Source: Stutzerimonas stutzeri (GTDB lineage: Bacteria > Pseudomonadota > Gammaproteobacteria > Pseudomonadales > Pseudomonadaceae). From it: a stretch of DNA of 64,000 bases. Shown here one piece after another: positions 30,049-34,702 of this stretch. The translations under genes and the position numbers were made by a program. Position 1 is the first letter of the stretch. Every line of letters begins with the position of its first letter. The stretch is taken from assembly GCF_000952685.1 (NCBI RefSeq), contig NZ_JYHV01000015.1, forward strand, positions 186,001 to 250,000. Direction: 5' to 3'. A model generated the notes under the pieces. The model saw only the letters and a list, made by a program, of their open reading frames with translations, did no database searches and had not been told where the DNA came from.

Positions 30049-31830
30049 ATGTTGAGTACCGATAGTCCCGGCGTGAAACAGGTGGTCGATCGACCCGACT
30101 GCCCGTTGCCCTTCGATGAAGCGCTATTGGATGTGCTGCCGATCGGCGTCTGCACGCTCGATGCCGATGGCGCGGTGCTGCGTTACAACCGAATCGCCGG
30201 TCAGCTTTGCGGAAGCGGGCTGGAGGTGTATGGGCGGCTTCGTATCCTGCGCCCGGATGGAGCTGCGTTGGCATTCGCCGACTCACCGCTGGCGGATACG
30301 ATCCGTACAGGACGTACCAGTCAGGACATTGCCCTGCTGATCGAACGGCCCGATGACGAGCCGATGCCGGTCCTTGCCAACATCCAGGCGATGCGCAGCG
30401 ATACCGGGCAGATCACCGGTGCCGTCATCTGCTTTCAGGGCAACACGCCATCCCGACAGTGCAACGCCGATCGTCGACGCAGCGTCGAATGGCTGAGCGC
30501 CATCGTCGAAAACACGCCTGAGTGCGTAAAGGTCGTCGACCAGGACGGCACTCTGGTGCAGATGAACCCGGCGGGCCTGCGCATGGTGGACGCGAAAAAC
30601 CCATCCGATGTGGAGGGGCTGAGTGTCTTCGATCTGATCGTGCCGGAGCACCGACAATACTGGCGGGACCAACACCGGCGGGTGTGTGAAGGCGAGAAGC
30701 TCAACTGGGAATTCGACATCGTCAGCTTGGGTGGAACCCGGCGGCACATGGAGACCCATGCCGTTCCCATGGCGCTGCCCGGCGGCCTCCGCGGCGCGTC
30801 AGGTGGTTTCGTGCAACTGGCGGTGACGCGCGATATCACCGTTCGCAAGCGTCTGGAGGCGGCGACCCGCGAGGCGGAGCGTCGGCTGGCCGACCTTCTC
30901 GATGCGCTGCCCAGCGCCGTCTATACCACCGACGCGAACGGTAAGGTCACGTACTTCAACCAGGCCTGCGTAAAACTGGCGGGCCGCGTGCCGGCGATCG
31001 GCACCGATGAGTGGTGCATTACCTGGCGGCTGTATTGGCCAGACGGCACGCCGATGCCTCACGCGACCTGTCCGATGGCCATCGCGCTCACCGAGAACCG
31101 CGCCATTCATGGTGCCGAGGCGATGGCCGAGCGACCGGATGGCACTCGGGTGCCATTTCTGGCGTACCCCGCACCGTTACACAACGAGGCTGGTGAACTG
31201 ATCGGCGCGGTAAACATGCTGGTGGATATCACGGAGCGCAAGGTCGCCGAGGATCATCGGCAGTTGTTGCTCAACGAGTTGAATCACCGGGTCAAGAACA
31301 CCCTGGCAACCGTACAGTCGATCGCCGCGCAAAGTTTCCGGAGGAACGAGATCAGCGAAGGCTATCGCTGGTTCGAAGGACGCCTGATCGCACTGTCCAA
31401 GGCTCATGACGTGCTGTCGAAGGAGAACTGGCAAGCTGCCAGTCTGAACGACATCATCGATCAGGCGGTGGCGCCGTTTCAGGCCCCAGGTCACCAGCGC
31501 TTCGTTATCGAGGGGCCGCCCCAGCGCCTGAAACCTAAAGCTGCGTTGGCATTGGCGATGGCTTTTCACGAGCTGTGTACCAACGCTGCGAAGTTCGGTG
31601 CGCTGAGCAGTGAGAGGGGCTTCGTTCGCATTCATTGGACGGTCACACCCTCTAAGTCCATGCATCTGTTTTGGAAGGAGGTTGGCGGCCCCCCGGTTTC
31701 GCCATCGGCGCGCAAGGGGTTCGGATCGCGCCTGCTCGAGTACGGTCTGGCGGGTGAACTCGATGCCGAGGTACGACTGGCTTATCCGGTCGACGGTGTG
31801 ACCTGTGATATCGAGGTTCCGCTGCCATGA
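30049..31830 (+). CDS. PAS-domain sensor histidine kinase, HWE family
   Basis: A soluble 593-aa kinase without membrane segments. Three PAS-like domains (about residues 25-140, 143-265 and 275-400) are followed by an HWE-type dimerisation/phosphoacceptor region. His413 lies in ELNHRVKNTLATV, and the W-x-E signature is in RWFEGR. The ATPase domain has the N-box FHELCTNAAKFG. HWE kinases often answer to light, redox or general stress. No LOV-type cysteine motif is seen in these PAS domains. The stop overlaps the response-regulator start by 4 bp. Confidence 0.9.
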   Translation: MLSTDSPGVKQVVDRPDCPLPFDEALLDVLPIGVCTLDADGAVLRYNRIAGQLCGSGLEVYGRLRILRPDGAALAFADSPLADTIRTGRTSQDIALLIERPDDEPMPVLANIQAMRSDTGQITGAVICFQGNTPSRQCNADRRRSVEWLSAIVENTPECVKVVDQDGTLVQMNPAGLRMVDAKNPSDVEGLSVFDLIVPEHRQYWRDQHRRVCEGEKLNWEFDIVSLGGTRRHMETHAVPMALPGGLRGASGGFVQLAVTRDITVRKRLEAATREAERRLADLLDALPSAVYTTDANGKVTYFNQACVKLAGRVPAIGTDEWCITWRLYWPDGTPMPHATCPMAIALTENRAIHGAEAMAERPDGTRVPFLAYPAPLHNEAGELIGAVNMLVDITERKVAEDHRQLLLNELNHRVKNTLATVQSIAAQSFRRNEISEGYRWFEGRLIALSKAHDVLSKENWQAASLNDIIDQAVAPFQAPGHQRFVIEGPPQRLKPKAALALAMAFHELCTNAAKFGALSSERGFVRIHWTVTPSKSMHLFWKEVGGPPVSPSARKGFGSRLLEYGLAGELDAEVRLAYPVDGVTCDIEVPLP

Positions 31831-32222
31831 TCGATCACAGCGCGAATACTAGAAGCGAGAGAAGTTTTGAACATCTCCGGGTTCTGGTCGTGGAAGACGA
31901 GGCGCTGGTCGGCATGTTGCTAGAGGATATGTTGAGCGACATCGGCTGCGCACACGTGGAAGTTCTGTCGCGCTTCGCCGATGGGCTGCAAGCGGCCGAG
32001 ACCGGGTCTTTCGATCTGGCCGTGCTGGATGTCAACCTTGATGGCGTCGCCAGTTTTCCGATCGCCGAACAGCTCATCGCCCGCAACATCCCGCTGCTGT
32101 TTGCCACCGGCTATGGGGTCGATGGCATGGACCCGCGATTCTCCGACATCCCCACCTTGCAAAAGCCGTTCTTCTTCAGCGATCTGGAGCGAGTCGTATC
32201 TCAGGCGTTGGAAGGGGCTTGA
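31827..32222 (+). CDS. Single-domain response regulator
   Basis: A 131-aa CheY-like receiver without output domain. The acidic pair is in VVEDEALVG, the phospho-acceptor Asp in LAVLDVNLDG, and the conserved Lys in LQKPFF. It is coupled to the HWE kinase by an ATGA overlap, so the two form a phosphorelay pair whose output must be another protein or a binding partner. Confidence 0.92.
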   Translation: MIDHSANTRSERSFEHLRVLVVEDEALVGMLLEDMLSDIGCAHVEVLSRFADGLQAAETGSFDLAVLDVNLDGVASFPIAEQLIARNIPLLFATGYGVDGMDPRFSDIPTLQKPFFFSDLERVVSQALEGA

Positions 32223-32259: not shown

Positions 32260-32281
32260 AAAAAGCCCGCGTTCAGCGGGC
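32260..32281 (-). terminator. Intrinsic terminator for the curlin-repeat gene
   Basis: On the minus strand a 6-bp stem GCCCGC / GCGGGC with a TGAAC loop is followed by five T. It lies 28 bp after the stop of the curlin-repeat gene. Confidence 0.8.
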
Positions 32282-32308
32282 TTGTCGAGGAGGCTGGGCG
32301 GTAACCCT

Positions 32309-33406
32309 TTACGGGCCTTGAGTCACGAACGCCGAGTTGCCCGTTCCGTTCTGCATGATCGCAGCGTTGTAACTCTGCGGGCTATCCAGCGTGCCGGTCT
32401 GCACGACAGACGCGTAGTTCTCGGTGCCGATCTGACCGACGTTGGCAGAGCTGTAGTAGCCGGACTGATCCACATCGATTTCGTTGGCGGTTCCGTTCTG
32501 GTCGATGATCAGGCTGCTGCCGTCGAAATCCTGCCGGATATCCACCCGGTTGTAATCGCCAGTGGAGTTCCCCTCTACGCTAGTCGAACGCCCGCTTTGC
32601 TGTGCGGTCAGCTCGTTGCCGGTGCCATTCTGCGTGAAGGAGAACGAGCCGAAGCCGGCAGACTCCACGACATCCGCGACGTTGTCCGTGCCGATCTGAA
32701 TCAGCTCAACGGTACCCGAGGAGTAGCGACCGGGTGAACGTTGGTCGAGCGTCGCCTGGTTAGCCGTACCGTTCTGACTGATCGTTGCGGTGGCGCCGAA
32801 GGGGAAGCCATCCTGAGTGAGGTTGATGGCGTTATCCGTACCGTTCTGCTCGGTCTGCGCATGAGTATCGCCTATTTGTTCGATATAGGCGGTGTTCCCA
32901 GAGCCGTTCTGCACCCCACTGTAATTCTTGACGAGGAAGCCTTCCTGAAACACCTCGATTGAGTTGTTCTCTCCGTTCTGGCTGATAGCAGCGCTGTTTG
33001 CGTTGAAGTCCAGCTGCTCGATATAGGCCAGATTGCTCGTACCCACTTGCGAGATGGATGCCGAATGGCCAACTTCTGCTGAAGACTGAAGTACGGTAGC
33101 GAGGTTGTAAGCACCGTCCTGGTTGACAGTGATTTCGCCGTTCAAGCCTGTTTGCTCGATGGTGGAGATGTTGCCGTTGCCAGTCTGGTTGCTGTTGGCC
33201 GTAAGACCGACCCCGCTCTGGTCGGTGTAGGCAACATTGCCTGTGCCGTTCTGTACTTGCGTAATGCTGCCCTCGTCGCCTTGCTGCATCACATCGGCAT
33301 AGTTGTCGCTGCCCGTCTGATCCTGGGTCGATTCACTGACGGCGTAGGCGTGATTCGCCAGTAATACTGAAATGGCCGCTGCCAGGATTGTTTTTCTTGT
33401 CTGCAT
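32309..33406 (-). CDS. Curlin-repeat secreted protein, predicted functional amyloid
   Basis: A 365-aa protein. It has a signal peptide (MQTRKTILAAAISVLLANHAYA) and a mature part built of repeated short strands. The strict motif Q-x-G-x-x-N occurs 14 times by my count, often extended to N-x-A-x(3)-Q as in CsgA (for example QNGSGNTAYIEQ and QVGTSNLAYIEQ). The composition is rich in N, Q, G, S, T and poor in K and C. It has roughly three times as many repeats as E. coli CsgA. None of csgB, csgD, csgE, csgF or csgG is nearby. The start has AAGGAAC upstream, and a terminator follows. The role is probably extracellular fibre or adhesin. Confidence 0.85.
   Translation of the reverse strand: MQTRKTILAAAISVLLANHAYAVSESTQDQTGSDNYADVMQQGDEGSITQVQNGTGNVAYTDQSGVGLTANSNQTGNGNISTIEQTGLNGEITVNQDGAYNLATVLQSSAEVGHSASISQVGTSNLAYIEQLDFNANSAAISQNGENNSIEVFQEGFLVKNYSGVQNGSGNTAYIEQIGDTHAQTEQNGTDNAINLTQDGFPFGATATISQNGTANQATLDQRSPGRYSSGTVELIQIGTDNVADVVESAGFGSFSFTQNGTGNELTAQQSGRSTSVEGNSTGDYNRVDIRQDFDGSSLIIDQNGTANEIDVDQSGYYSSANVGQIGTENYASVVQTGTLDSPQSYNAAIMQNGTGNSAFVTQGP

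Positions 33407-34702
<1,296 letters not shown>

Follow-up and report, generated by a model that had tools for sequence, protein, structure and literature searches.

The minus-strand gene studied here encodes a long curlin-repeat protein that is, in our judgement, quite probably an accessory curli subunit of the CsgA type, dispersed from the csg operons, separately transcribed, exported through a CsgG-CsgE-CsgF pore shared with other curlins of the genome, and capable of forming fibres. Curli are adhesive protein fibres that give bacterial biofilms their cohesion. The initial annotation of the window (the whole 64-kb stretch analysed, contig C14:186001-250000 of a 4.90-Mb Stutzerimonas genome) had proposed a CsgA-like amyloid candidate lacking curli secretion genes. 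The candidate itself is supported by evidence from family membership, predicted fold and conservation, whereas its orphan status is not. The gene and the putative export signal at its start are placed as follows.

32309..33406, minus strand: CsgA-type curlin-repeat subunit gene; 365 aa, ATG start, 14 strict QxGxxN repeats
33341..33406, minus strand: putative Sec signal peptide, residues 1-22, with a candidate cleavage site between AYA and V, by sequence inspection

That this gene is real and encodes a curlin-repeat protein is confirmed. The count of fourteen strict Q-x-G-x-x-N motifs in 365 residues, first made by reading the sequence, proved exact; when the residues were shuffled 2000 times, the count averaged 0.44 and never exceeded 3. 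Pfam Curlin_rpt (PF07012) recognizes 12 stretches of the protein (E 4.2e-32), at 110 bits against a family cut-off of 20.7, while the scores fall below both NCBIfam equivalog cut-offs (CsgB, 120 against 165 bits; CsgA, 110 against 160 bits). The repeats had been called irregular in length, and the motif spacings do range from 21 to 27, with one skipped repeat giving 44, yet they depart little from the mean of 23+/-5 published for the family (PMC10192328). The N-terminus, MQTRKTILAAAISVLLANHAYA followed by V, is Sec-like by eye with a candidate cleavage site at AYA-V; A20 and A22 are invariant across 14 orthologues, and AlphaFold2 assigns low pLDDT to residues 1-21. The signal peptide claimed at the outset is retained as putative. 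The mature N-terminus is without the Gly-rich N22-type export signal known from E. coli CsgA; N22-like sequences are exceptional among CsgA homologues (PMC10192328).

Structure prediction, suggested initially as a check for a stacked beta-solenoid, returned such a fold: the AlphaFold2 model, computed from an input of nine sequences, is a predicted beta-solenoid with a strand about every 11 residues (pLDDT 89.4, pTM 0.84). The best solved match is 8C50, a long curli subunit also found by sequence profile (E 6e-46), and VIA-align places the model on this structure with a Z of 38.6 over 336 residues (rmsd 8.4), against 21.7 or lower for unrelated beta-solenoids. The Foldseek match to 8C50 is weak (E 0.15); the correspondence rests on sequence and VIA-align, and the modelled fold is a beta-solenoid like that of 8C50.

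Full-length orthologues occur in 15 genomes, the host included, at identities of 56-100% and with near-constant length (364-366 aa). Across the 14 intact copies none of the 42 Q, G and N positions of the motifs varies, while 72 of the 323 other positions and 29 of the 74 remaining Q/G/N residues are constant, and dN/dS lies between 0.11 and 0.24; the gene is under purifying selection. The exception is the G035 orthologue (L026), whose reading frame is interrupted by a TAG at codon 85; its locus has kept the receiver gene described below and is without the HWE kinase. As a separate observation on curlin content, one congener (G020) yields 18 matches to the protein, the most of all relatives searched, and two of them, adjacent at 166868 and 168053 on its contig C1, suggest local duplication.

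The orphan appearance arose because the window spans only 64 kb. No csg export genes are found within it, as had been reported for csgB, csgE, csgF and csgG, and the genome's csgG, csgE and csgF matches are confined to contigs C12 and C19. The genome search recommended as a check located CsgG, CsgE and CsgF on C12, in one cluster with a csgD-like gene, csgB (158 aa) and csgA (424 aa), so that the supposed absence of secretion genes is rejected at genome scale. A second set on C19 comprises a csgD-like gene, csgE, csgB (161 aa) and csgA (310 aa); neither csgF nor csgG was found in it.

L014:5773-8397 (contig C19): second csgD-csgE-csgB-csgA set (csgDEBA-2), kept in about 20 congeners, without csgF/csgG

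Lone curlin genes are also present on C13, C24 and C27, bringing the genome to eight curlin-repeat proteins at six places, with one CsgG. Four of the eight are lone genes outside any csg operon, including the window gene, whose neighbours encode an HWE kinase, a receiver protein and an SDR dehydrogenase.

Within the genus, CsgG and curlins tend to occur together. Of 56 Stutzerimonas genomes, 49 have curlins, and 47 of these give a strong CsgG match (E below 1e-60); among the 7 curlin-negative genomes the number is 0, all as raw counts that ignore kinship; in a published survey CsgG is missing from only 2% of CsgA-bearing genomes (PMC10192328). The two exceptions, G017 and G053, keep several curlin genes and have no CsgG by profile or protein search; neither carries an orthologue of the window curlin. 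G017 (2 contigs, 100% complete; L076, L084, L085) retains the csgDEBA-2 set, and G053, an 80-contig draft, is also without csgE. Recent loss of CsgG or another export route is possible in both, and a search for a csg-operon scar by way of the flanking aldo-keto reductase gene found no close orthologue of that gene in either. In a further congener (G043:C1:4583791-4584620) the csgG match is split in two close to the start of the gene, and one of the parts contains a stop, which suggests a frameshift or a wrong start.

The gene is probably a transcription unit of its own, flanked by the following elements.

33493..33504, minus strand: conserved promoter element ATTAATCCCCCG (TTAATNCNCC), some 97 bp before the ATG, in 15/15 orthologues
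33463..33468, minus strand: GGATAC, a possible -10-like hexamer at a conserved alignment position, 36 bp downstream of the element start
32263..32283, minus strand: terminator-like hairpin with T run, downstream of the curlin gene

The upstream block ATTAATNCNCCG lies at -95 to -101 before the start codon, and its core TTAATNCNCC recurs throughout the orthologues; the 12-mer pattern of the element has 2 exact sites genome-wide. It is kept also in orthologues for which no SDR gene was found upstream, which argues that the element goes with the curlin gene. It may resemble the E. coli CsgD box. A promoter scan found no sigma-70 consensus upstream of the gene. A second upstream block, TTATCTCCAATTGATACAAAGCA (minus strand, window 33530-33595), is partly conserved in most orthologues and adjoins an inverted repeat, AAAACGCTGG/CCAGCGTTTT. 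Upstream of csgB, the C13 curlin and csgD there is no significant match to the TTAATNCNCC element, and a promoter box common to all curlins was rejected: only csgB2, of the C19 set, carries a related form, TTAAT[CT]C, which all 9 of its orthologues have near -105, with modest scores. The csgB, csgB2 and C13 promoters are similar by eye around TTCGAT. On the other side of the gene, the terminator described initially has a fitting counterpart in the hairpin AAGCCCGC-TGAAC-GCGGGCTT with T run at 32283-32263(-), some 26 bp beyond the stop codon, but hairpins of this kind are no rarer than chance in shuffled sequence, with about 2 chance matches expected here.

Beyond the hairpin, and convergent with the curlin gene, lie two genes that had been offered as a control pair.

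30049..31830, plus strand: PAS-HWE histidine kinase, convergent with the curlin gene (PF07536, E 5e-28)
31827..32222, plus strand: receiver-only response regulator (PF00072, E 1.5e-8), its start overlapping the kinase stop by 4 bp

Both genes are as described, and control of the curlin by them is possible. The pair is, however, intact beside the curlin at only 9 of 15 loci (the regulator alone persists in G035, and five loci have neither), so that its role in control is unproven. At one of those five (L051) the curlin directly adjoins the MMSDH gene, which indicates that the kinase-receiver module is separable from it.

Several other explanations have to be weighed against that of an accessory subunit using the shared pore. 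The most substantial, which we nonetheless consider unlikely, assigns the window curlin to the csgDEBA-2 set on C19, under the control of the CsgD-like regulator of that set. All 15 genomes with an orthologue possess the stand-alone csgE2 set, and the orthologue is found in 15 of 20 genomes with this set and in 0 of 29 other curlin-positive congeners; the related motif in all csgB2 promoters would fit such a link. The co-occurrence tracks one clade, however, and could therefore be explained by shared ancestry, while the common motif is 7 bases long, several csgB2 copies score modestly, and 2 of 9 do not stand out from upstream regions of other genes. Somewhat less probable still is a separately regulated curli fibre formed by the window curlin on its own for a distinct condition, which the HWE kinase and receiver would help to define. 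This would accord with the gene's own transcription unit and nearly gene-specific promoter element, with orthologues that retain both repeat positions and length, and with the adjacency of kinase, regulator and curlin in 9 of the 10 genomes with an intact kinase orthologue; the sole orthologue with an in-frame stop (G035) is also without the kinase, a link that amounts to one case. Against it, no kinase stands beside 6 of the 15 orthologues, the convergent orientation means that curlin and kinase-regulator genes have no common promoter, and G017 has kept kinase and receiver with the curlin absent. A broader variant, which we regard as improbable, would have dispersed one-gene curlin loci, with their own promoters and a fixed repeat register, feeding one CsgG pore, the composition of the fibre being chosen by subunit switching and the window curlin possibly controlled by an HWE kinase and receiver dedicated to it.

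The protein might alternatively be a nucleator or minor subunit of the CsgB kind rather than a bulk subunit, and its NCBIfam score is indeed better for CsgB than for CsgA. Both scores are under cut-off, the true csgB genes of this genome encode proteins of about 160 aa and lie beside csgA, in contrast to the 365 aa here, and published CsgB homologues are of nearly uniform size (PMC3521004); we therefore hold this to be quite improbable. Least credible of all, and very improbable, is a decaying, functionless duplicate: the in-frame stop in G035 would be its one sign, and a degenerate pseudogene is rejected by the invariance of the motif positions, the dN/dS values and the promoter element retained in every orthologue.

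The preferred explanation, an accessory CsgA-type subunit served by the shared pore, itself has points counted against it, namely the NCBIfam scores below cut-off, the lack of an N22-type start, the weak Foldseek E-value and the CsgG-less curlin carriers G017 and G053. According to this explanation, the gene would be transcribed by itself, as a unit of one gene, and the protein would cross the inner membrane by Sec and leave the cell through the CsgG-CsgE-CsgF pore, whose genes lie on another contig. Once exported, it would fold into a beta-solenoid of about 14 coils and assemble into curli-type amyloid fibres, either as a filament of its own or together with other curlins. What appeared to be an orphan amyloid is thereby seen as an ordinary but useful case, in which one export pore probably serves eight curlin-repeat proteins. 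If the subunits are made under different conditions, the composition of the fibre could be adjustable, and the CsgG-less genomes provide a natural test for another export route.

Comparison with known systems sets these features in proportion. With CsgA and CsgB of E. coli the window curlin has curlin repeats and a (here putative) signal peptide in common, as well as csgEFG in the same genome; it differs in lying outside a csg operon, in having no N22-type start and in falling under both NCBIfam cut-offs, and its 365 aa with 14 strict repeats contrast with about 152 aa and 4-5 repeats (PMC3521004). The initial description of the protein as long, irregular and unlike that of E. coli is accurate, yet long CsgA homologues are common outside the Enterobacterales (PMC3521004, PMC10192328): in 2012 they were known to reach 529 aa and 22 repeats, in up to six copies (PMC3521004), and by 2023 up to 14 CsgA copies per genome, with a maximum of 30, had been recorded (PMC10192328). 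The closest structural counterpart, CsgA R15.5 of Pontibacter korlensis (8C50), is alike in length (365 against 363 aa in the chain), repeat family and predicted beta-solenoid, but it is described as centrosymmetric and very acidic (PMC10192328), and the spacings of 21-27 with a skipped repeat bring the window curlin nearer to the degenerate repeat class published in 2023 (PMC10192328). The literature searched held only passing mentions of Stutzerimonas curli, and no description of this promoter element or of the orthologous family with its fixed 14 repeats. Compared with other genomes that carry multiple CsgA copies, this one has eight curlins at six places served by one CsgG, four of them lone genes, and the window curlin has a conserved promoter element to itself. 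Genomes with many CsgA copies and CsgA homologues of great length are known; new, relative to the papers searched, are the promoter element conserved among the orthologues and the orthologous family of 14 repeats.
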